From contig PHSP01000002.1 of NCBI GenBank assembly GCA_002862125.1, positions 62,001 through 126,000 on the forward strand: a stretch of DNA of 64,000 nt, given 5' to 3'. Below are positions 1,544 to 39,755 of this stretch, piece by piece (the first letter of the stretch is position 1; every line of letters starts with the position of its first letter). Below the pieces are notes generated by a model, which was not told where the DNA came from, made no database searches, and saw only the letters and a list, made by a program, of their open reading frames with translations. This DNA comes from Methylobacter sp. KS41. Lineage in GTDB: Bacteria > Pseudomonadota > Gammaproteobacteria > Methylococcales > Methylomonadaceae. A program made the translations under genes and the position numbers.

Positions 1544-3616
1544 TTAAACCAGACCCAGCGCGACCAGAGTCAGGTCAATCGCCTTGATGCCGATAAACGG
1601 AACGATCAATCCGCCTGCGCCGTAAATCAGTAAATTGTTTTGCAGCAGAGTAGCGGCGCCGACCGGCTGGTACTTGATGCCTTTTAAAGCCAGCGGAATC
1701 AGCGCCACGATGATCAGCGCATTGAAGATCACCGCCGACAGAATTGCGCTGGCAGGCGTTGCCAGTTTCATCACATCCAAAACTTCAAGCACCGGATAAG
1801 TCGTAGCGAACGCGGCTGGAATAATCGCGAAATATTTAGCAACATCGTTGGCTATGCTAAAGGTTGTCAACGCGCCGCGCGTCATCAGCATCTGTTTGCC
1901 GGTCTCGACTATTTCGATCAGCTTGGTCGGGTTGGAGTCGAGATCAACCATGTTCCCGGCTTCCTTGGCCGCCTGGGTGCCGCTGTTCATCGCCACCGCA
2001 ACATCGGCTTGAGCCAATGCAGGCGCATCGTTCGTGCCGTCGCCGGTCATCGCGACCAGACGCCCCTCAGCCTGGTATTGCCTGATTAATTTCAGCTTCA
2101 TCTCCGGCGTGGCTTCGGCCAGAAAATCGTCGACGCCGGCCTCCGCGGCAATTGCGGCGGCAGTCAAACGATTATCGCCGGTAATCATGATGGTCTTGAT
2201 GCCCATCCGCCGCAATTCGGCAAAACGTTCCTTGATGCCGCCTTTGACGATATCCTTGAGTTCGATCACTCCAAGCACGCGAGCGCCTTCGGCAACAACC
2301 AGCGGAGTGCTGCCGCGACGCGCCACGTCATCGACCAGTTTGAGAAATTCCGGCGGGAATTTGCCGCCCGACTCTTCAACATAAGCACGAATGGCATCGG
2401 CTGCGCCCTTGCGAATCTGCCGCCCTTCAATATTTACTCCGCTCATCCGAGTTTGGGCGCTGAAATGAATGAAAGTTGCTCCCAGAGCCCCCACATCCCG
2501 TTCTCTAAAACCGTATTTCTGTTTTGCCAAAATCACCACGCTGCGTCCTTCCGGCGTTTCGTCAGTCAGTGAGGCCAATTGAGCGGCGTCGGCAAGTTCC
2601 TTTTCCGACACGCCTTTTGCGGCTATAAAAGCGGATGCCTGCCGATTTCCCAAGGTAATCGTGCCGGTCTTGTCAAGCAGCAATACGTCGATGTCGCCAG
2701 CCGCTTCCACAGCCCTGCCGGATGTCGCAATCACGTTTTTCTGCATCATCCGCCCAATACCCGCTACGCCGATGGCCGACAATAAGCCGCCGATAGTCGT
2801 CGGAATCAGGCAGACCAGCAACGCCACCAGCACGGTAATCGTAATGGGTTGTCCACTGCCTGATGTCGCCACTGCGTAAAGTGAAAACGGCAGCAAGGTA
2901 ACGGTGGCCATAAGAAAGACCAGCGTCAACGCGACCAGCAGAATGGTCAAGGCAATTTCATTGGGTGTTTTCTGCCGCTTGGCGTGTTCCACCATGGAAA
3001 TCATACGGTCCAGAAAGGCTTCGCCCGGATTGGCGGTAATGCGCACGACGAGCCAGTCCGATAACACGCGCGTGCCGCCGGTCACCGAACTGAAATCACC
3101 GCCGGATTCGCGGATCACCGGCGCGCTTTCGCCGGTGATTGCACTTTCGTCCACTGAGGCGACCCCTTCAATGACTTCCCCATCGCCGGGAACAAAATCA
3201 CCGGCTTCAATCAAAATCACATCGCCGCGGCGCAAACTGGAACCGGCTACTTTGGAAAAATTCGCGCCATAATGCGGCTCATCCAGTATTTTCGCTGCAA
3301 TATCACGCTTGGCGCTACGCAGAAATGCAGCTTGGGCCTTGCTGCGGCCTTCGGCGACCGCCTCGGCAAAGTTGGCGAACAAGACCGTACCCCAAAGCCA
3401 TAAAGTCACTGCCAAAATGAAATTTGCCGGATCCTTGCCGTTACCGTTAAGGGCCTGTAGCCAAAGCACGGTGGTCAGAATGCTGCCAATATAAACGACA
3501 AACATTACCGGATTTTTCCATTGCTGCTGCGGAGCAAGTTTCCGGAATGAATCAATCAAGGCTGCGCCAAGGATTTGCCGGTTGAACAAAGACGTCGAAA
3601 CAGATCTTTTACTCAT
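1544..3616 (-). CDS. kdpB: Potassium-transporting P-type ATPase subunit KdpB
   Basis: KdpB is the ATP-hydrolysing P-type ATPase subunit of the Kdp pump in the inner membrane. All signature motifs are present: the actuator TGES at residues 161-164, the phosphorylation loop DKTGT with Asp315, the nucleotide-binding TGD, and the hinge [21 protein letters not shown] near residue 510. Membrane helices lie near residues 35-55, 65-85, 222-275 and in the C-terminal hundred residues. At 690 residues it has the family length with no truncation. It lies between kdpA (gap about 60 bases) and kdpC (gap 5 bases). Confidence 0.98.
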
Positions 3617-3679
3617 GTTTTCTCTCTATCAGGTTTTTCGATGGGCGGATAAAACACGCCCGCATTGAAATAATTCCGG

Positions 3680-5488
3680 TTATTTAGCTCCGGTCATCTG
3701 GAGATGTTCGACAACAGGCCCCAAAGCCAGGGCAGGAACAAAAGTCAGGGCGCCAACCATTAGCACGGTGCCGATCAATAACACAACAAATAGCGGGGTG
3801 TGCGTCGGTAAAGTGCCTGGGCCGGCCGGTACTGTTTTTTTTGCCGCCAGGGAACCCGCGATAGCAAGGACGGGTACGATAAGCCAGAATCGTGAAAACA
3901 GCATCGCCATGCCCAACAGGGTGTTGTAGAAGGGCGTATTCGCCGAAAGACCGGCAAAAGCGCTGCCGTTGTTATTGCCCGCCGACGATAACGCATACAA
4001 GACTTCGCTGAAGCCGTGCGCTCCCGGATTAAAGACGGATGCCTTGCCGGCACCGGTCAACACGGAGAGAGCTGTGCCGCCCAATACGAGCAGCGGTGGA
4101 ATCAGAATGACGATCGCAGCCATTTTCATCTCGTAGGCCTCGATTTTTTTACCTAGATATTCGGGCGTGCGGCCTATCATTAAACCGGACACGAAAACCG
4201 CCACGATCGCAAACATGATCATGCCGTACAGCCCTGAACCCACGCCGCCGAAAATCACTTCTCCCAACTGCATCAACCACATAGGCGCCATGCCGCCGAT
4301 TGGCGTGAATGAATCATGCATCGAATTGACCGAACCATTTGAAGCCGCCGTGGTAGCGACCGCCCACAAAGCAGAGTTGGCTATTCCGAACCGGGTTTCC
4401 TTGCCTTCCATGTTGCCGCCGGACTGGCTGATGCTTGCGGTTTGATCAATGCCCAATGAAGTCAAGGCAGGGTTGCCGCTTTGCTCCGCCGGTACCGCAA
4501 CAAAAATAAGCGCAACCAAAACCAGCGTCATCGCCGCCAGAATCGCCCAGCCTTGCCGGGTGTCGCCCACCATCATGCCGAAGGTGTAGCACAGCGCGCC
4601 TGGGATAAGCAGTATCGACAGCATTTCCAGAAAATTACTTAACGGTGTCGGATTTTCCAACGGATGCGCCGAGTTGACGTTGAAAAAGCCGCCGCCATTA
4701 GTGCCTAGTTGCTTGATGGCTACCTGGGAAGCGGCAGGTCCTACAGCCAGGATTTGCTCTTTGGCTTCAACCGTTTCCATGACCGGCTCACCGGCTGCAT
4801 CTCGCAACGCCACGCCATCCGCGCCAGGTTTGGGCTGTTCATAACGGACTGTTTCGACCATCGGCACGGTTTGATAGGGCTTTAAAGTTTGTACAACGCC
4901 TTGGCCGGCCAGCAGCAAAGCCAGAATCAGCGAAAGCGGCATCAGTATATAAATAACGGTGCGGGTAAGATCAACCCAGAAATTACCTATGGTGTCCATG
5001 TTACGCCGTATGAAGCCGCGGATCAATGCGGCCAGAACCGCCATTCCGGTTGCGGCGGAGGCGAAATTCTGCACTGTCAGTCCCAGCATCTGGGTCAGAT
5101 AACTCATGGTCGTTTCACCGCCATAATCCTGCCAGTTGGTATTGGTTGCAAAGCTGACGGCAGTGTTGAACGACGAGTCAGGACTAACTCCGGGCAGATT
5201 TTGGGGATTAAAAGGCAGAGTGGCTTGCAGGCGTTGCAACGCGAAAACCGCAAGCGCGCCCAGCAGATTAAATACCAGCAAGCCGAGCGCATAATCCGTC
5301 CAGCGCATTTCCTCTTTCGGATTTACGCCGCATAAGCGATAAATCAACGTTTCGACCGGTAACAAAAAGCGATTCAAAATCACCGGCTCATTCTCATAAA
5401 CTTTAGCCATGTACCAGCCGAGCGGTTTTACCAGCGCCAGCAGGGCGGCTACATAAAATGTGATTTGGAAGAAACTGTTGGTTGTCAT
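3680..5488 (-). CDS. kdpA: Potassium-transporting ATPase subunit KdpA
   Basis: KdpA is the K+-channel-like subunit of the Kdp complex, with four repeated membrane-pore-membrane units and a selectivity filter. The 602-residue protein is hydrophobic throughout and carries family motifs such as FNLLGALAVFALQRLQ, VSFATNTNWQDYGGE, LGTNGGGFFNVNSAHP and SSAGNNNGSAF, the last three being pore-loop/filter regions. A periplasmic insert around residues 205-245 is longer than in E. coli KdpA. Its ATG overlaps the kdpF stop by one base, indicating translational coupling. Confidence 0.98.
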   Translation of the reverse strand: MTTNSFFQITFYVAALLALVKPLGWYMAKVYENEPVILNRFLLPVETLIYRLCGVNPKEEMRWTDYALGLLVFNLLGALAVFALQRLQATLPFNPQNLPGVSPDSSFNTAVSFATNTNWQDYGGETTMSYLTQMLGLTVQNFASAATGMAVLAALIRGFIRRNMDTIGNFWVDLTRTVIYILMPLSLILALLLAGQGVVQTLKPYQTVPMVETVRYEQPKPGADGVALRDAAGEPVMETVEAKEQILAVGPAASQVAIKQLGTNGGGFFNVNSAHPLENPTPLSNFLEMLSILLIPGALCYTFGMMVGDTRQGWAILAAMTLVLVALIFVAVPAEQSGNPALTSLGIDQTASISQSGGNMEGKETRFGIANSALWAVATTAASNGSVNSMHDSFTPIGGMAPMWLMQLGEVIFGGVGSGLYGMIMFAIVAVFVSGLMIGRTPEYLGKKIEAYEMKMAAIVILIPPLLVLGGTALSVLTGAGKASVFNPGAHGFSEVLYALSSAGNNNGSAFAGLSANTPFYNTLLGMAMLFSRFWLIVPVLAIAGSLAAKKTVPAGPGTLPTHTPLFVVLLIGTVLMVGALTFVPALALGPVVEHLQMTGAK

Positions 5489-30220: not shown

Positions 30221-31125
30221 GGCTGCATGGGGCGTATTCGAGTAAGTAATCAGTTATAGCTCTTTTTTTACGATCCAACATAAGCATGTTCAGTAATTAT
30301 AATCGGATGAATCATCTGAGACCCATTTGATAGCTACGGGCGATTTGCGGTTCATATATTTATAAAGGTGATGTGGTCATGACAGAAAACTCTTGCACGC
30401 CATTTGGTGTTCATTGCTTTTTTCCTGATTAATATGTACAGCCCATTTCTGGATAGATGATTGATGGGTACTAGGTAATATTTCCCAGCGCATGAGCAAT
30501 TGGAAAATTAAGAAGATCACATTCGAGAATAGTCCTTCGCTTTAAGAGGAAAAAGCTCTAATACAGCATTGTAACTATACGCATGCTCTTGTCGAAACGA
30601 ACTGCGTTCATCATGCAGTAATGAAATGAGCTTCATAAATGGCAAAGATAACGAATTTGAATTTAATAATTTAAGTAAAAAAGCCATCGCCTCAGACTGA
30701 TCATCGAAACCACTTCGACTGGCGTTTCGACTTTTCAAAACCGTTTGCCATAAGTTTTCCACTGGTCCAAGCCAGAAATTTGCAAAAGGGATCGTCAAAG
30801 CAATTTCCAGACCCTTGGGGTCCATATCGCTAAAAACGATAACCTCTTTATTAGTACCAAACCTTCTTACAAAGTCATAACAGGTATTTACCTTTGCCCC
30901 TGACTTATGATCTCCTCTATAAACCCATAAAGCTTGTCGAGCAAAAGGAGGTAGATTACATTCACCGCATACCTGCATCAAGGCAAGGTTTTCTACGACC
31001 ACAATGGCATCATGTTCTATGGACCTAATTCCTGAATTCAAACAAAATAACCCAGCTGTCTATAGTGGACCCCGAAATCCGGACAATAGTTTAAGATATG
31101 CCCTGTTGTAAAAAAGAGGCAGAAA

Positions 31126-31419
31126 ATGAGCGAAAGCAAACGGAAAATTTTTACAGGCACGCAAAAAGCCAAGGTTGCACTGGAAGCGGTGAAGGGCACT
31201 AAAACAGTCAATGAGATCGCACAGGAGTTCGGAGTCCATCCGACCCAAGTGACGCAATGGAAGAAGGAATTGCTTGCCAATGCAGGCAGTTTATTTGAAG
31301 GCAAGCGTGGCCCTAAACCGGTCAATGCCCAGAGTGACCCAGACCGGTTGTACGCCAAGATCGGGCAACTCAACATGGAACTGGATTGGCTTAAAAAAAA
31401 GTCTGGACTCAGCCTGTAG
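31126..31419 (+). CDS. IS3-family transposase OrfA
   Basis: A 97-residue helix-turn-helix protein (KVALEAVKGTKTVNEIAQEFG, VHPTQVTQWKKELL) typical of IS3 OrfA, ending in a leucine-zipper-like stretch ELDWLKKKSG. Near its end lies an A8G run (31393-31401), the slippage site for a -1 frameshift that would join OrfA to OrfB. Confidence 0.93.
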   Translation: MSESKRKIFTGTQKAKVALEAVKGTKTVNEIAQEFGVHPTQVTQWKKELLANAGSLFEGKRGPKPVNAQSDPDRLYAKIGQLNMELDWLKKKSGLSL

Positions 31420-31487
31420 TTGAGCGGCAGAAGTGGATAGAGCCAGGTGGATTACTTGCCCTATCCACGCAATGCAAGCTTCTCGCG

Positions 31488-32336
31488 GTGACGCGCTCGG
31501 TGGTGTATGACCAGAAAAAGCGTCCACAAAAAGCAGTCGACGAGTTTGAGTGCATGCTGTTGAACAAGCTCGATGAAGAGTACACGCGGCATCCGTTTTA
31601 TGGGTCGCGGCGCATGACGAAATACTTATGTGGCTGTGGGTACGCAGTCAATCGCAAGCGGGTGCAACGCTTGATGCAAAAGTTGGGACTGGCCGGTATG
31701 GCTCCCGGCCCCAACACCAGCAAGCCACATCCGGAGCACAAGCTTTATCCGTACGTGTTAAGGGGCTTAGCTATTATCCGCCCCAATCAGGTATGGAGCA
31801 CCGACATCACTTACATTCGACTACGGCACGGATTTGTGTATCTGGTTGCGATTATTGACTGGTACAGCCGCAAGATACTGTCATGGCGATTGTCGAACAC
31901 GATGGATGCGGGATTCTGTGTGGATTGTTTGGAAGAAGCCATCAAGAACTATGGTGCGCCGGAGATCTTCAATACCGACCAGGGCCCTCAATTCACCAGT
32001 GACAGTTTCACTGGCGTATTGATCAAAAATGGCATCACCATTAGCATGGATGGGCGAGGCCGTGCTTTGGACAATATTTTTGTCGAACGGCTATGGCGCA
32101 CGGTGAAATATGAAGATGTGTACTTGAAGGGATACGAAAACATGCCGGATTTACTATTGGGGTTGACGCAGTACTTCCTGTTTTACAACGAGGAAAGGCT
32201 ACATCAATCGTTGGGCTATACAACACCGGATAGGGTGTATCAGACAGCAACAGGTGGCGGCGCCAAGATTGTGGATAAATTTAACAAGCCGTCAGAAACA
32301 TTAGGCATTGAACTTACGAACGTCAGCGATAGTTGA
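31488..32336 (+). CDS. IS3-family transposase OrfB (DDE integrase)
   Basis: A 282-residue rve-type catalytic protein. The DDE triad is visible in WSTDITYI, NTDQGPQFTS and FVERLWRTVK, followed by YNEERLHQSLGYTTP. The GTG at 31488 opens the independent frame; by -1 frameshift from OrfA the frame already runs from about 31401 (VWTQPVVERQ...). It appears full length and potentially active. Confidence 0.93.
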   Translation: MTRSVVYDQKKRPQKAVDEFECMLLNKLDEEYTRHPFYGSRRMTKYLCGCGYAVNRKRVQRLMQKLGLAGMAPGPNTSKPHPEHKLYPYVLRGLAIIRPNQVWSTDITYIRLRHGFVYLVAIIDWYSRKILSWRLSNTMDAGFCVDCLEEAIKNYGAPEIFNTDQGPQFTSDSFTGVLIKNGITISMDGRGRALDNIFVERLWRTVKYEDVYLKGYENMPDLLLGLTQYFLFYNEERLHQSLGYTTPDRVYQTATGGGAKIVDKFNKPSETLGIELTNVSDS

Positions 32337-32383
32337 GGTTAAAAAGAGCGGATATTGGTTTAAAGCCTCTACCGGCGGTCTCC

Positions 32384-32491
32384 ATGTGGACAAAGCGTGA
32401 ATTTCCTTCGGAACGTGTGGATAAGCTGATAGAAAACTGCTTAGGCAGTTTACCACGAGCTTACCCACACTAATTCACCCTTTGACCACAT
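32384..32491. repeat. Nested imperfect palindrome with three paired arms
   Basis: Outer arms ATGTGGACAAAGCGTGAAT (32384-32402) and its complement (32473-32491) differ at 2 of 19 positions. Middle arms GTGTGGATAAGCT (32415-32427) and AGCTTACCCACAC (32458-32470) pair with one G-T type mismatch. Inner arms AAACTGC/GCAGTTT (32434-32451) close on TTAG. Together they make one long hairpin of about 108 bases downstream of orfB. Confidence 0.85.
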
Positions 32492-32492
32492 T

Positions 32493-32533
32493 CCGCCGCA
32501 GTAAACATAAAGGAATATCAAAATGCCTGCGGC
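32493..32533. repeat. Second hairpin, GCCGCAG/CTGCGGC
   Basis: Arms GCCGCAG (32495-32501) and CTGCGGC (32527-32533), separated by 25 AT-rich bases, immediately beyond the nested palindrome. No coding frame is present from 32337 to 32680. Confidence 0.6.
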
Positions 32534-33094
32534 GCAATAATAACAATGTATTGAAATGAAAAAGGAAATGACTTAATTTTTGAATAATTTGTTGTGGGCA
32601 ATAGGGAGTACTCTACTCCGTATAGAAGAATTGGGACAGCGCCATTCAGCTGTAATGTGGACAGGACTCTATCTTAAACTCAATGAATATTTGTCTGGAC
32701 AGAGGGGGCCACTTTAGTCGGAATTAATTCAGGATGTAATTGTATATTTTTCCCGTTGAGGCGAATAACGCCATCAGGACTATTTAACAACAAAAGATCG
32801 TGGCTGACTGGTTTGCTAGCCAGCTTTTCGTTGGGATGATATTTCGCCATCTCTAAGCGGTTTTCCGGCAGTTGCCCGGTCACGAACGGGTCTATACCTA
32901 ATTCATCCTTTACTTGCTGACGCAGGCGGCGTTTGTCGTCGGCACTGAAAACCAGTTGTTGCTTGCTAACGTAGCCACAACCGTAACGTGTCATTATTTG
33001 TTGACCGTGCGTGCTATTGCGGCGGATGGTGCTTTGATCCGGCTTGTCTCTGACCAATGCGCTGATCCATTGATACATGTGCCTGTTCATGTCA

Positions 33095-34324
33095 TCAGGC
33101 TACCCGCTGCAACTGGATTTCCTCGATGATCTGGTTGCCGTCGAAGCCAGCCAGGTTTTCGCCTTGCATATCCAGTGCAATCGTGCGGTGCATGCGTCCT
33201 GGCAGGCAGCAATACTGCGCGAACACCATGTCCAGCCACAGCTCGGCTTTGACTTCCAGGCATTGCTTATTCCAATAACGCAGCGCCGAAACTTTGCGGC
33301 CTTGCTGTTCCAGGGCCAGCACAAACAGGTTTTCGATATGGCTTTCGTACAGGTCTTGATCGTATTCGATCTGCCCCGGAATTCGGGTGTCCAACGGCGA
33401 TGTGGCGCTATCTCTGGTCAGCGGTGCGACGGGTTTAGACTGGCGCCGCAGTTCCTGAACGATGACAGCCAGATCGGCCTGCAGGACCGGATTGGCCGGG
33501 TTGATGCCGGGTTGCAACGTCAGGCCGGCGCCGCGCCGCAACAGCTTAGGAATATCGGCTTCGGCGCTCCAGTCCAGAGGCTCCCATTCCGGGTGCTGCT
33601 TCAAAAACTGGGCCATGGCCCGGCAGCGGTTGGCGGTTTGTTCCTGCAATCGCAGTTTAAACAGCAACTCCTTCATGCGGCCGACGATGCCGGTCAGCCG
33701 TTCGACGATGCTCTTGTATTGATCGATGAAACGGATGATTTTCCGGCTCAGCTCTGGCGGAATGGCGCTCCAGCTCAGCCAGTCGTAGCAATCATCGATC
33801 CTCACGTGATTCAATTCTTGCACCAGTTGTTGCGCATAAGCCAGTGCGCGCTGGTTTTGCCTGATCTTGCTGTTCAGCGAGCCGACGAAACCGAACTGGC
33901 TGGTAATCGCCGCAAACATCACCCCCAGACTGCTTTCCAGCGCTTCGACCGCTTCGTACAAAGTATCGTCGATCTGTTCCAGATGATATTGCGCTTCGTC
34001 CTGGTTGTTCTGTTCCAGCGCGCGGCGATAGTCTTCGATATACTCCTCGACGCTCAGTATCATTTTGGCCATGTTGATGTTTTGCTGGTAGCGCTGGTTG
34101 CGCAGCAGCAGGCGGTCAATCAGGCGCTTGATGTCGTAGGTCAAGCGGTACTCGTCGCTGACATCGGCGCTACGCAAAATGCCGGATTTTTTCAGGCTGT
34201 CGATTGCGCTACGGTTGTCGTCGTCGGTAAACACCGTGCCGTTGATATAGGTTTGCGCCAACAGTTGATCGGCGCTAGCCAGCTTGCGTATCAGCCCGGC
34301 AATTTGCTCGTGGTCGAAACTCAT
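33095..34324 (-). CDS. Kleisin-like subunit (JetA/MksF-like) of an SMC defence complex
   Basis: A 409-residue, mostly alpha-helical protein. Kleisins bridge the SMC heads and bind the KITE subunit. The N-terminus (residues 1-75) looks like a winged-helix domain, and the middle (about 75-260) is long amphipathic helix. It shares no obvious motif with DUF3375 JetA that I recall, so assignment depends on position between the KITE-like and TOPRIM genes, coupling to both, and helical character resembling MksF. It overlaps the upstream gene by four bases (ATGA). Reading frame intact. A long open frame on the opposite strand (33077-34423) is a compositional shadow. Confidence 0.7.
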   Translation of the reverse strand: MSFDHEQIAGLIRKLASADQLLAQTYINGTVFTDDDNRSAIDSLKKSGILRSADVSDEYRLTYDIKRLIDRLLLRNQRYQQNINMAKMILSVEEYIEDYRRALEQNNQDEAQYHLEQIDDTLYEAVEALESSLGVMFAAITSQFGFVGSLNSKIRQNQRALAYAQQLVQELNHVRIDDCYDWLSWSAIPPELSRKIIRFIDQYKSIVERLTGIVGRMKELLFKLRLQEQTANRCRAMAQFLKQHPEWEPLDWSAEADIPKLLRRGAGLTLQPGINPANPVLQADLAVIVQELRRQSKPVAPLTRDSATSPLDTRIPGQIEYDQDLYESHIENLFVLALEQQGRKVSALRYWNKQCLEVKAELWLDMVFAQYCCLPGRMHRTIALDMQGENLAGFDGNQIIEEIQLQRVA

Positions 34325-34950
34325 AAAAACAGTTCCTGCTGTTCGCCGTCTTCGCCGGCGGCGTGTTGGTCCAGTTCCAGGTTTTCGGCGTCGTTCAAGA
34401 AGGCGATGACGTTATGCAGATAATTGATCTTGCCGGTGGCGATATAGACCGAGGCTTGCGGATTAGGCCGGACCAGGTAGCCGGTGTGCTCCAGTTTTTG
34501 CAGCACCCAGGACAATTGATCGTTGAAACCGGTTTTGCTGGTTTTGAACAGCGTCAACTGGGTCAGCCGGTTCAGTTGTTCGGATAACGAAGGTTCGTGT
34601 TCGATGGCCTGTAACAGCCGGTGCAGACGGATTTCATCGCGGGCCCGGATCGGCATGTCTTGCCCCAGCGCCGTCATGACCATATCCATCCATTCGACCA
34701 CCGGTCGCAATTGTGAGCGTATCTCCGAAAAGGCTTCTCTGATCGAGCCGCGATTGCTGTCGTCGACCACCGTGTAGGCGGCGTAAAACAACTCGCCGTC
34801 CAGATTGAGTAGTTCTCTGTCCAGCGGCTTGAGAAACAGGTTGATCTTGTCGGCATTGGTCGGCTGAGATAAATACTCGAAGGCGTCAGGGTAGGCGGTC
34901 GGACAGATGAAATGGCCGCTCAATACCGCTTCGGCGACTTGCTTAAACAT
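34321..34950 (-). CDS. KITE-like subunit (JetB/MksE-like) of an SMC defence complex
   Basis: A 209-residue protein from the ATG at 34950, which has a strong GGAGG six bases upstream; the longer frame to 35019 is not needed. It begins MFKQVAEAVLSGHFICPTAYPDAF, like MksE (the KITE subunit), and continues with helix-rich stretches and a winged-helix-like C-terminal half (LSWVLQKLEHTGYLVRPNP, SVYIATGKINYLHNVIAFL). KITE dimers bind the kleisin and DNA. It overlaps the SMC gene's end by 8 bases and the kleisin start by 4. Confidence 0.75.
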   Translation of the reverse strand: MFKQVAEAVLSGHFICPTAYPDAFEYLSQPTNADKINLFLKPLDRELLNLDGELFYAAYTVVDDSNRGSIREAFSEIRSQLRPVVEWMDMVMTALGQDMPIRARDEIRLHRLLQAIEHEPSLSEQLNRLTQLTLFKTSKTGFNDQLSWVLQKLEHTGYLVRPNPQASVYIATGKINYLHNVIAFLNDAENLELDQHAAGEDGEQQELFL

Positions 34951-37900
34951 GGGTGGCCTCCTTTTCAGTTTGCGCGTTAAACAGTTGCTCCAGCTTGCTT
35001 TGCGGCAGCTCGACCTCATGAAGCTTTTGCTCTTTCAACAGATAACGGCGCTTGAACAGGTTCAATACATGGCGGTCGGCGGTCGGGGTAGCCGATAGAA
35101 TCTGGATGTTTTGTTTGGCCAATAGGTTCATCATAGCCTCGATATTTTCCGGTGCCAAGTCGCCCAGTTCGTCGATCGGCCAACAGATCACGGTGGGGTT
35201 TTGCTTGCGCAGCATAGCCGTGACGCCGGTAAAAAACGTAATCAAGGCCAGATAGGACAGGCCGGTGGAGCTGACGTCCTTCAATTCTCTGGCGTTGCGG
35301 GCATGTTTGAGCTGGCCGTTTTCGAAGATGCTGAACTCGATGTCGAACAAGGCCAGATGCTTGATCTTGACGCCGGTGGCCGGCAGCAGCGCGGTCAGTT
35401 CGCCCATGGCTTGCACCAAGGCGTCGGGGATGTCGTGATTGCCGTTCAACTCGGCGTTGTCGCGGTACTGGCCGTAATGGTCGCCGAATTTCTTCAAGGC
35501 TTGCCAGTATTCCAGGTCGCTCATCTTCGATCGGACGTTGACTGTAATCTCGCCCAAGGCCTCGAAATAGCGTTCCTCGCTGACGTAATTGGACAACTCT
35601 GTGCCTGTGCTTTTAATCGCGCGGTCGAAGTTATGCAGATGCTGATAAAAGGTGTTGACGCTGGATGCGTGCAATTCGATTTGCTGGGCGTTGGCTTGTT
35701 TGACATGACCGACCATCTGCAACACGTCGATCAAGGGTTGCTCGATCTCCAGCGCTTCGGCATGAAAAAACTCGCTACTGTGGGACGATGCGTTCAGGGC
35801 CTGCGACCAGGCTTCCGCCAATTGGCTGCGTTGATGCTTATTAAAGAGCTGCACCAGGGCCTGCTTGCCGCTTTGAATGTCGCGTTCCTGGCGCTTGCGT
35901 GCCTTCAGAGTATCCTGGGTCAGGCGCGGCAGCGTGCCGGACGCGTATTCGGGCTGGTCTTCCGCGCAGATCGGCGGGCAGCCCCGCAATTGATCGATAC
36001 ATTGTTCCAGTTGCGAAAGCAGGCTGTTGTTGTTTTTCAGCCGCTCGTCCTGAACGACGATTTGTTGATTCAACAGCGCCCGTTGCCGTTGAAAATCCTG
36101 CTTCAACCGGTCGATCTCGTCTTTCAACTGCTGTATTTGACGCAGGCAGTCATCGCGTTGCCGGCATAGTTCCGGATGTTGTTGCCAGCGTTGTTGCAGC
36201 CAGTCGATATATTCTTCGGCCTTACGCTGGAAGCTACAGGCTTCTTTTTCCTGGCCTTGGGTCTCCTTGAGCCTAGCCATCAAGGTCAGCACGGTCTGTT
36301 CATCGGCACCGCTGCTGGTCAAATCGCTTTTTAGTTGCTGATCGATGCGGCGATGTTCCTGTTTGAAATGTTCGGTGTCGGTTTCGGTTTGTTCGGTTAT
36401 CGTAGCCAGCAGGTTCGCCAAGTCCGATTCGATGATGCCTTTGCGCGCCAAATGCTCGTTTTGCAGCTACTGTAAGGCTTGCTGGTGCTCGGTTTCGATT
36501 GCGACCAGGGTCTTGTCGCAGGCTTTGATGTCGCTGGATAAGCGCTCAATCTCCTGTTCCAGCTGTTGCTGGGCTTTTGCCGTTTCCGCCTTGATTTGGT
36601 CGGCCAGCCCGTTGGCCTCGTTTCGTAAGTTTTCTTCCAGTTTCTCGGTTTGTTGTACGCGTGATTTGGTTTGATCCAGCGCCGACTTGGCCTGCTCGCG
36701 CAGTTTGTTAGCGGCCACGAGGCCTGCTTCCAGCCCTTCGCATTCCTTGCTTAGTTTGGACACCTGCTCGAACAGGTCTTTTTCCTGCTGCGCCAAGCGA
36801 ACCTTGTCTTCGGTCAGATAACTGCGGTCGGCCAAAGCTTGCAGGTTGATGCTAAGGCCATAAAAGGTTTGGTTCGGGTTAGCGCTCCACTGGGGATCGA
36901 GGCCGCTATGGTCCAGTAATTCCGGGGCGATGACACGGCCTATGTTTTGCTGCCAGCCTTCGGCTTCCTGCTCCAGAAAATATTGCAGCGAGCCGGGTTC
37001 CGGCCGCAGGCGTTTCATGCATTCGTCATGGCGCTCTTTGCTGCGTTTGAGCCCGGCTTTATTGTCTTTGAGTTCCTGTTCGGTTTGTTGATAGTGGCTA
37101 AAACTTTGTTGGTAATGGTTTTGTGCTTCAGCCTGAGCTTGATAGGCCAGTTTGGATGCTTTGCCGGCCGCGTCCAGGGCCTCGCGGTTTTTGTGCTGTT
37201 GCTCGATCAAAGCGGCAGGAATCGGCGGATTTTTTTGCTCGTTTTGCTTGAGATGAAATGCAGTCAAAAATTGTGCGTACTGTTCTTTAACGGGATGCAG
37301 GCGATTGTCTTTGTTCAGCAACAACTGGTCCTTGCGCTGCTGGAATTCGGCGTCCGCCTCTCGCAGGCTTTGGCTTTGCTTCAGCTTGGCATCGGAACTC
37401 TGCTGCTGGTAGTTTTGGATTTGTTTTTCGTGCCTGTGCTGCAATTCGCTTAATTGTTTTTCGTAAAAGCGCTTGATTTCCTGGGTCTTGTGCTCCAGCG
37501 TGTCCAGCTCGGCTTGAATATCCTGTTGTTGCTTGGTGTATTGCTCTACCTTGGCCCCTTTGACCGCAAAGCTTTCGGCCCCTTGTTCGTCGAAGGTCAG
37601 TTTTTGGTCTTCCAGCGCTTGGATCTGGTAGCTTAAGTCATTCAGGCGACTATTGGCTTCCATCAAGGCGTCTTCTCTGGGTTCCAATTCTTGTTCATTC
37701 GTTTGCTTCAGTTGCTCGCGTTGTTGGGTCAGCTGTTTCAGACTGTTTTCCAGTGCTTTTGTTTCCTGTTGGCAGTCTTTGTGTTTGCTTTGGGCCAGGA
37801 AGTGCAGGTGCGATAGGGATTTTAGGCTTTGCTTCAGTTCGGCTATGGTTTGCAGCAAACGGTCGAAATCGGTGCGCTTGGCTTCAATTTCCCTGGATGC

Positions 37901-38621
37901 GCCCAAATCCGCCAGCCAGGCGTCTATGTGTTGTTTGTTGAGCTGAAAGGGTTGTTGTTCGTCTTCGTTTTGCAGAAAGCTGTGGCTGAGTTTGCTGCGG
38001 GATATGTCGATCAGCATTTGTTTGATGACGTCGAAATCGCCGATTTTCTCGATCACCGAGCCTATGACTTTTTCGATATGGTTAATCGGCGAATTGGCCA
38101 TTGCAAAACGGTTTTGCAACAGGCGCAGGTCTTTCTTGCCGCCTGTGAGCTGATGGCATTGGATGATGCTGCAATAGTCGTCGACAGCGACGAATTTGGA
38201 GACCTCCGCGATGCTGCGATAGAGTCGCTCTATGCTCTGGCTATCGCGGGGGAAGCCTGTTTCGGTTATATAAAAGTCCTGCTGATACGGCGCGTCGATG
38301 AATTTGTATTTGGCGGTGCGGCCATCGCTTTGCATCATCACATGGCAGACCTGTTGATAGGGCCGTTGGTATTCGTAAACCAGATAACTGCTGGCGCGAG
38401 GCAGGTAATAATCCAGAAAGCCTTTTTTACTGCCGCTGCCGCCGACGATGCTGCTGGGCCGCTCGCCCCAAAACAACTGCATCAGACGCAGGAACGTGGT
38501 TTTTCCGGCGCCGTTGGTGCCGCTGAGGTTGGTGTGGCCGTCCAGTTTTAGTAGAACAGTTTTGCCTGGCCAAAAGCTGTCAATCAGGATAATTTTTTTT
38601 TAGTTGGTAACAATTTGACAT
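34943..38621 (-). pseudogene. JetC/MksB-like SMC ATPase gene with a frameshift and an in-frame amber codon
   Basis: The first gene of the operon, encoding a DNA-translocating SMC ATPase of about 1225 codons. The natural start is the ATG at 38621, behind AAGGA five bases upstream (MSNCYQLKK...). An A9 run (38593-38601) then puts the rest out of frame by one base; with one A fewer it continues IILIDSFWPGKTVLLKLDGH to Walker A SGTNGAGKTT. A TAG at 36469-36467 interrupts the coiled-coil region in frame (EHQQALQ, stop, LQNEHLARKG). The C-terminal part keeps a signature-like SSTGLSYLALI and Walker B VICWPIDELGD. The length 3679 minus one is divisible by three, fitting one extra A. Either three-part decay or sequence errors would explain it. 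Confidence 0.85.
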
Positions 38622-38769
38622 TGATTTCCTTAGATTTATAAGCTCAAGTAATGTGGCAATAGATAGGATTTTAGAGCTATACCGGAAGGAGAGCATACTG
38701 GGATCATTATCTGTTGACTTCTCTTTGGCCTGATTAAATGTATGAATATTGGACCATTATAATCAAAGT

Positions 38770-38790
38770 ACATGATCAAATTGATCATGT
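38770..38790. promoter_or_regulatory. Perfect 21-bp palindrome, candidate operator of the WYL regulator
   Basis: ACATGATCAA, a central A, then TTGATCATGT, a perfect inverted repeat with 10-base arms. It lies between the divergent SMC operon (start 38621) and the regulator (start 38841). On the minus strand TTGACA (38793-38788) and TACTTT (38770-38765) flank it with a 17-base spacer, and on the plus strand TTGATC (38781-38786) and TAGATT (38803-38808) overlap it with a 16-base spacer. BrxR/CapW-type WYL repressors bind such repeats; the pairing here is inferred. Confidence 0.65.
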
Positions 38791-38840
38791 CAATAACGCA
38801 AATAGATTGCTTTTCTATTCTTCTGCCTTAAAATGTATCA

Positions 38841-39755
38841 ATGCGTATCAATCCTATATCTGTCATTTACCCAGAAAGCGTTCAAAATTTAAGCCAGACA
38901 CAGCTTGAGCGTTTAGCTTATATCGAATTTCGGCTACTTTTCCTCGGTGAAATTGGTCGACAGGATTTAATGCAAAGATTTGGCGTGGCTCCCGCAGTAG
39001 CAACCAGAGATTTTGCTCAATATAGGGAAGCATTTCCTAATAACATTAGTTTTAATGGGAAGACTAAGTCTTATGTATTGGGCCACGAGTTCTCCCCCGC
39101 ATTTAAACATTTTCCAGATCAGGTGCTAACCGCTTTAGCGCATGGGTTCGGTGATGGGGGTGTTTACACTGGTAGCTCTTTAGTGCCGTGCGAACTTCCC
39201 TTCGTTCCTAGTCGTCCGACAATAGACATTCTTGCTCCAATTAGTCGCGCTATTCATCAACAAAAAATTGTTAGCCTCAACTATACATCCCATACCAGCG
39301 GACTAACGAAACGTGAAATAGCGCCTTTTGCTTTAGTAAATGATGGGCTTCGTTGGCACGTTCGCGCCTATGATCGGAAGTCAAATGAGTTTCGTGATTT
39401 TGTCCTTACACGCATGGAAGAGGCAACGGTAATACACGAGAGCGCTTTGCAGAAACACGAACTACCATCCGCTGATATTCAATGGAACCGGATAGTCGAG
39501 CTAGATTTGGTTCCTCATCCTAACCAAGATCATCCTGAAATTATTGAGGGGGACTATGGCATGATAGCTGGCGTGTTACACATAAAAATAAGAGCATCCA
39601 TTGCCGGCTACGTGCTACGTCAGTTAATTGTTGACTGTTCGCCTATGCATAGGTTGAAAGGAAAAGAGTTCAGGCTCTGGCTACAAAATCATCTGTCTCT
39701 TTATGGAGTTTTCAGTGCTCGTCTGGCGCCTGGATATGAAAATATGTTGGATTAA
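38841..39755 (+). CDS. WYL-domain transcriptional regulator (BrxR/CapW-like)
   Basis: A 304-residue regulator with an N-terminal helix-turn-helix (about 20-70: ERLAYIEFRLLFLGEIGRQDLMQRFG, VAPAVATRDFAQYREAF), a WYL domain (about 130-200: QKIVSLNYTSHTSG, EIAPFALVNDGLRWHVRAYD) and a C-terminal winged-helix/WCX-like region. This arrangement is that of BrxR/CapW regulators found beside BREX, CBASS and other defence systems. It is divergent from the SMC operon and separated from it by 219 bases with a palindrome. Confidence 0.85.
   Translation: MRINPISVIYPESVQNLSQTQLERLAYIEFRLLFLGEIGRQDLMQRFGVAPAVATRDFAQYREAFPNNISFNGKTKSYVLGHEFSPAFKHFPDQVLTALAHGFGDGGVYTGSSLVPCELPFVPSRPTIDILAPISRAIHQQKIVSLNYTSHTSGLTKREIAPFALVNDGLRWHVRAYDRKSNEFRDFVLTRMEEATVIHESALQKHELPSADIQWNRIVELDLVPHPNQDHPEIIEGDYGMIAGVLHIKIRASIAGYVLRQLIVDCSPMHRLKGKEFRLWLQNHLSLYGVFSARLAPGYENMLD

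Follow-up and report, generated by a model that had tools for sequence, protein, structure and literature searches.

A degenerate SMC-first operon related to Wadjet and MksBEFG in Methylobacter sp. KS41

Introduction

The described systems closest to the locus studied here are Wadjet type I and MksBEFG, both of which combine an SMC ATPase, a KITE subunit, a kleisin and a TOPRIM nuclease. In type I the genes are ordered jetA-jetB-jetC-jetD (kleisin, KITE, SMC, nuclease), with which passages of PMC10586767, PMC10123090 and PMC12647877 agree, and a passage of PMC10123090 gives mksF-mksE-mksB-mksG for MksBEFG. We analyzed a 64,000-nucleotide stretch of Methylobacter sp. KS41 (GenBank assembly GCA_002862125.1, contig PHSP01000002.1, positions 62,001 to 126,000, forward strand; hereafter the window), on whose minus strand tightly coupled SMC, KITE, kleisin and TOPRIM genes follow one another in this order, divergent from a gene for a WYL-domain regulator. 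In our judgment, with a probability of about three in four, this is a degenerate copy of a Wadjet/MksBEFG-like DNA-restriction operon from a separate branch with the SMC gene first and an SMC of the DUF3584 family (class A below). The original prediction had read the locus as a four-gene system. Its gene order, coordinates, couplings and divergent WYL gene were all found again on re-examination and the four protein identities were supported. The SMC gene is not intact, and the window copy is a pseudo-operon.

Among the literature titles and abstract openings listed, none names an SMC-first type, although an earlier description may exist. In addition, no paper on DUF7281, the family of the TOPRIM protein, was found, and defense is not the subject of those passages of the DUF3584 literature that were available.

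Results

Gene order is a near-constant trait of the class A operons

Loci were collected by kleisin, DUF7281 and DUF3584 searches, independently of gene order, and 53 of them were scanned with profiles of class A and of class B (loci with the MksFEBG order). The order SMC-KITE-kleisin-TOPRIM was observed in 26 of the 53 loci, each by class A profiles; three of these (L113-L115) were absent from profile building, and L075/L077 and L078-L080 are near copies. The window and the plasmid locus L090 showed the SMC-first order as well, with split genes, and L051 showed it without TOPRIM. Class B profiles detected the order kleisin-KITE-SMC-TOPRIM in ten loci (L043, L044, L046, L047, L049, L050, L057, L082, L086 and L088), plus one with a split SMC gene, and SMC-TOPRIM only in four, one of which (L045) lies at a contig end. 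The remaining scanned loci comprised two with SMC only and one with TOPRIM-SMC, and five Wadjet type I loci and one MukBEF locus gave no profile match at 1e-5.

Plasmids carry the operon too. An SMC query at 1e-20 matched 18 plasmid records, 13 of which were fetched. Among the first plasmid loci, L089 and L113-L115 are SMC-first and L090 likewise with its split SMC gene, and seven of the eight loci fetched later have the same order (L155 with split genes). The eighth (L152), on plasmid pPP6 of Persicobacter psychrovividus (Bacteroidota), reads KITE-SMC-TOPRIM, and the gene upstream could be a kleisin; its SMC is class A-like (1233 amino acids, 379 bits). This layout perhaps represents the classical order before rearrangement. 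Since the same four families recur in the same order in other loci, the operon is not a product of chance or artefact, and the gene order that had been called unusual is a near-constant trait of this clade.

The distribution is patchy. Matches over the cut-off were obtained in 7 of 274 genomes of the class and 4 of 35 of the genus, with the genome of the window counted, and in a single one of 50,697 phage records. This record, Dolichospermum phage Dfl-JY45 (209 kb; PP438435.1, 86907-93262), contains all four genes in the order SMC-KITE-kleisin-TOPRIM as a complete operon, whose products are labeled hypothetical proteins. A search of viral contigs with the SMC alignment found none, and 20,395 E. 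coli records gave no near match to a 3.5-kb part of the L090 locus, in a search not directed at distant matches.

The four subunits

Both SMC pieces of the window belong to Pfam PF12128 (DUF3584). The Walker A, signature and Walker B motifs are invariant columns in 23 relatives, and in the window they lie on separate pieces. The metal-binding residues E154, D209 and D211 of the TOPRIM protein are invariant in 21 relatives, and the VVENL and DMDPKG motifs are retained in the window piece. Matches to Pfam MksE (PF21980) at E ≤ 0.1 were obtained for 24 of the 26 KITE proteins of the family (best 2.1e-12); the window KITE itself gives no match at this threshold. The predicted kleisin model resembles MukF and JetA with weak E-values, and that of the TOPRIM protein is similar to topoisomerase VI-A, MksG and JetD. 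Class A SMC proteins have about 1220 amino acids, and the TOPRIM open frames mostly 272-322, up to 344 with uncertain starts. Among four close relatives TOPRIM is the fastest-changing subunit; as a family-wide rule this was rejected, the median pairwise identity being 20.7% as against 20.8% for the kleisin.

Comparison with known systems

Class A shares with MksBEFG (class B) the four subunit types, a KITE of the MksE family and a TOPRIM protein of about 290 amino acids matching DUF7281, and it can occupy the same genomic slot upstream of priA-argS. It differs in gene order (kleisin-KITE-SMC-TOPRIM in class B) and in the SMC, which has about 930 amino acids in class B and gave no DUF3584 match in the one class B protein tested (L047). 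Comparison of the two classes by hhalign gave E 9.5e-10 and a probability of 96.5 for TOPRIM, and weak values for KITE (E 0.0041) and for the kleisins (E 0.0058), which are barely comparable. In L047 the KITE is of the MksE family and the TOPRIM protein matches DUF7281 marginally (27.7 bits, cut-off 27). The short TOPRIM protein, taken earlier as a distinctive trait, is therefore not one, because loci of MksFEBG order have a similar size and the same DUF7281 model.

Wadjet type I (L107-L111, not every gene being found in all) is more distant. Unlike class A it has the jetA-B-C-D order; the one JetC tested, that of L111, lacks a DUF3584 match, and the JetD of this locus, with 415 amino acids, is longer than the class A TOPRIM protein. 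At 1e-5, class A profiles found nothing in any of the five loci of type I. With the PADLOC type I JetC model PDLC00519 the window SMC piece scored 15.2 bits and the intact SMC of L003 21.1 bits; with another type I model, PDLC00513, 5 of 150 genomes gave matches, which scored 299-600 bits. Pfam JetA is absent among the best 25 of the 26 families matched by the kleisins at E ≤ 0.1, with the JetA of L111 as a control (1.9e-23). JetD models gave weak matches only, in few of 21 class A TOPRIM proteins, and profile comparison of class A TOPRIM with one JetD gave E 3.1e-4 and a probability of 39. The class A kleisin compared with one JetA and the class A KITE compared with MukE yielded nothing. MukBEF of E. 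coli K-12 (L112), unlike class A, has the order F-E-B and no TOPRIM gene in the stretch, and class A profiles did not match it at 1e-5. Topoisomerase VI-A/Spo11 differs in that the class A TOPRIM protein is encoded in an SMC operon, the fold search having barely tested the N-terminal part of the latter.

A tree of SMC heads computed under a mixture model unites class A in one clade of 26 rows (support 100/97). It also groups classes A and B and a pair of loci with a third gene order away from Wadjet-I and MukB (95/90). In an earlier tree under a simpler model, L055 fell outside the class A clade. Both trees have long branches, call for caution and include no known type II or III JetC. As far as Wadjet type I and MukB are concerned, the mixture-model tree and the MksE-family KITE support the earlier proposal of a distinct clade possibly nearer MksBEFG. 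Class A is set apart by its gene order, its DUF3584 motor and its clade.

The first alternative, which we regard as unlikely, is that these loci belong to Wadjet type II or III, in which gene order varies, and escape the PADLOC models used; as this would leave the mechanism unchanged, the possibility overlaps with the one we prefer. Type II and III JetA, JetC and JetD models gave at most weak matches, and 150 genomes each yielded no positive control. Against membership, with E ≤ 0.01 as threshold none of 26 class A kleisins matches a PADLOC Jet model, no solved chain named Jet or Muk stands among the matches listed for the SMC, KITE and kleisin profiles (60, 5 and 8, respectively), and in fold comparison of the kleisin MukF outscores the Wadjet-II chains. 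The class B proteins tried (L047, L082 and L083) likewise gave weak Jet matches only, and thus absence from PADLOC is not itself a sign of novelty.

The genomic slot and the case for a restriction role

Within the genus, one locus (L039) has a class A operon directly upstream of priA-argS, and in five others (L047, L048, L057, L058 and L087) class B SMC and TOPRIM genes occupy this same slot. Across these loci priA is 77-95% and argS 83-98% identical; L057 shares both upstream genes and L047 one. All four class B genes are present at the slot in L047 and L057; in L048, L058 and L087, tblastn (1e-3) over the stretch covered gave no match to either the kleisin or the KITE of class B. The use of a single slot by two different SMC-nuclease machines suggests a common function. 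Moreover, the operon is additional to the host's own Smc-like gene. A mechanism of the Wadjet-I/MksBEFG type is most likely because of this shared slot, the patchiness, the carriage by plasmids and a phage, and the separate host Smc.

The same observations bear on a second and less probable alternative, namely that the operon encodes a chromosome-organizing condensin of the MksBEF/MukBEF kind with TOPRIM as a topoisomerase-like accessory and not a defense nuclease. The MukF-like kleisin fold fits this, as do members adjoining sbcB, priA or an SbcC-like gene and the TOPRIM-less locus L051 (G198:C10), where no TOPRIM gene adjoins and a DUF7281 search of that genome was also empty. However, a condensin would hardly be expected to be so patchy, to be found on plasmids and one phage, to share its slot with MksB-type genes, or to be broken in a genome with its own Smc. 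A Lamassu-type (LmuB/ABC-3C) system is very improbable: although the LmuB model PDLC03865 is matched at E ≤ 0.01 by 11 of 23 SMCs (best E 8.9e-8, 28.8 bits), the matching part of L003 is 625-927, taken for coiled coil, and none of 26 kleisins or 21 TOPRIM proteins, nor the window KITE (the sole KITE tried), matches Lamassu models.

The window copy is degenerate

The features of the locus are collected in Table 1. The SMC gene loses its frame in a run of nine A shortly behind its start codon; no common start codon occurs between this run and position 38482, which lies behind Walker A, and an in-frame TAG stop follows. An IS3-family element disrupts the TOPRIM gene, and contig C3 of the same genome carries another copy of this element with 99% identity. 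The two TOPRIM pieces align with residues 2-122 (64% identity) and 127-300 (60%) of the intact homologue in L002. With the frameshift, the stop codon and the insertion, the window copy would be unable to make SMC or nuclease as one protein, and a working copy was rejected on account of these lesions. Judged from the sequence, the machine in the window is dead. The frameshift in the A run could be a sequencing error, which is judged less likely for the insertion and the TAG codon.

Table 1. Features of the class A locus in the window (positions count from the first nucleotide of the window)
Feature	Position	Strand	Basis or remark
TOPRIM C-terminal piece with VVENL, DMDPKG and RQE motifs	30517..31056	minus	DUF7281 E 2.2e-34; 54-63% identity to residues 125-306 of homologues
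Candidate target site duplication GTC (3 bases)	31058-31060 and 32717-32719		flanks the IS3-family element
IS3-family element in TOPRIM gene	31061..32716	+	NCBIfam transpos_IS3, 252 bits
IS3 transposase frames	31126-31419, 31488-32336	+	inside the IS3-family element
TOPRIM N-terminal piece (winged-helix part)	32717..33090	minus	50-64% identity to residues 1-130 of four intact homologues
Kleisin/TOPRIM gap	33091-33094	minus	4 bases
Kleisin subunit, intact, 409 amino acids	33095..34324	minus	
KITE/kleisin overlap	34321-34324	minus	4 bases
KITE subunit, intact, 209 amino acids	34321..34950	minus	via family (MksE-related); 84-90% identity to L001, L002, L003 and L052
SMC/KITE overlap	34943-34950	minus	8 bases
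SMC C-terminal piece with signature SSTG and Walker B WPIDELG	34943..36451	minus	PF12128 E 8.8e-96
In-frame TAG stop in SMC gene	36467..36469	minus	sequence; whole-genome profile search also gives one TAG inside
SMC N-terminal piece, open frame as listed; Walker A just upstream in the same frame	36467..38482	minus	PF12128 (DUF3584) E 4.9e-94
A9 run, SMC frame lost there (start ATG at 38621)	38593..38601	minus	sequence
Perfect palindrome with 10-base arms, candidate operator of the WYL regulator	38770..38790		divergent intergenic region
WYL-domain transcriptional regulator, 304 amino acids, divergent from operon	38841..39755	+	Pfam WYL 55.9 bits (cut-off 21.8), PADLOC WYL

The ratio of nonsynonymous to synonymous substitution rates (dN/dS) between the window KITE and kleisin genes and intact relatives is 0.07-0.12, and intact pairs give 0.07-0.13. 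Relaxed selection on these two surviving genes was thus not seen, and the breakage looks recent. For the TOPRIM piece, four of six pairs, including all three with the window, were saturated without a ratio. Broken copies are also seen on plasmids: in L090 (Enterobacter) the SMC gene is split by an IS256-family element, and in L155 (a Vibrio campbellii plasmid) SMC and kleisin are each spread over two frames.

Proposed mechanism and its meaning

Starting from what is established (families, predicted folds, conserved ATPase and TOPRIM residues, near-constant order, plasmid carriage and a slot shared with MksB-type genes), we infer a defense role by analogy. In an intact class A machine, an SMC ATPase pair bridged by the MukF-like kleisin with KITE subunits would extrude DNA loops. 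On a small circular DNA extrusion would run to its end and activate the bound TOPRIM nuclease, in which a topoisomerase VI-A/MksG/JetD fold appears reduced to winged helix and TOPRIM, and the plasmid would be cut. The extrusion of loops, the sensing of size, the cleavage step and plasmids as the target are carried over here from Wadjet-I and MksG. A wider proposal, on which we hold the balance to be even, is that class A may add a fourth architecture to the plasmid-restriction machines built on SMC proteins, defined by an SMC-first operon, a DUF3584 motor and a pared-down cutter of topoisomerase VI-A type. Such a machine would be interchangeable with MksBEFG at its slot, and conjugative plasmids and at least one large cyanophage would carry it to attack circular DNA that competes with them.

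If this is true, a coherent plasmid-restriction group in Pseudomonadota has been missed by the PADLOC models tried; the annotated plasmid and phage records examined call its genes 'ATP-binding protein' or 'hypothetical protein', and one TOPRIM gene 'DUF2399 domain-containing protein'. It would also offer a small-nuclease relative for studying the activation of a topoisomerase-like cutter by SMC motors, and the priA-argS slot would allow comparison with MksBEFG. In addition, the plasmid- and phage-borne copies raise the question of how carriers escape their own system.

The divergent WYL regulator

BrxR/CapW regulators combine a winged helix with a WYL domain and bind an inverted-repeat operator. 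The WYL gene had been described earlier as that of a BrxR/CapW-like regulator. A divergent gene is indeed present in the window, but it is not a constant companion: relatives were detected by phmmer (1e-5) in 3 (L074, L084 and L090) of 51 other loci, whose flanks are partly short. Being sporadic among loci, the regulator was rejected as a core part. The palindrome in the divergent intergenic region, judged by its sequence, is a candidate WYL operator. When the region was shuffled 2000 times by mononucleotides, arms of this length arose 8 times; they occur once in the region itself and at six places in the whole window. The two comparable regions tried, in L074 and L090, contain no palindrome with 8-base arms.

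Genomic setting and further loci

The operon and its regulator are located between slyX on one side and bcp on the other, with hemN preceding (the three names were assigned by eye). Among 28 other hemN-slyX loci of the genus, 7 have bcp within approximately 100-350 bases after slyX; in the remaining 21 bcp was not seen in the short stretch covered, several stretches ending early. The GC content is 0.52-0.56 for the SMC, KITE and kleisin genes, 0.48 and 0.40 for the TOPRIM pieces, 0.44 for the WYL gene, and 0.47 and 0.41 for the flanking hemN and bcp. The closest kleisin relatives found are from Methylobacter (86%), Methylomicrobium (85%) and Methylomonas (83%).

A second, intact operon of this kind (L042, 2021-5710) is located on contig C3 of the same genome, directly behind an SbcC-like gene. 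Its kleisin is only 23% identical to that of the window; by this comparison of sequences, one genome carries two lineages of the same kind of operon.

A third layout was observed in L083 (G458:C19) and L084 (G658:C28), which contain, in this order, a TOPRIM-like gene, an SMC gene of about 980-1000 codons, a gene for 472-478 amino acids in the place of the kleisin and a KITE-sized gene. In L083 the TOPRIM-like gene matches DUF7281 below the cut-off, and the KITE-sized gene is of the MksE family. Upstream of the intact operon in L001, a TIR-domain gene is coupled to a gene for 509 amino acids without Pfam match (1708-4637), a pair that by eye resembles a short-Argonaute pair.

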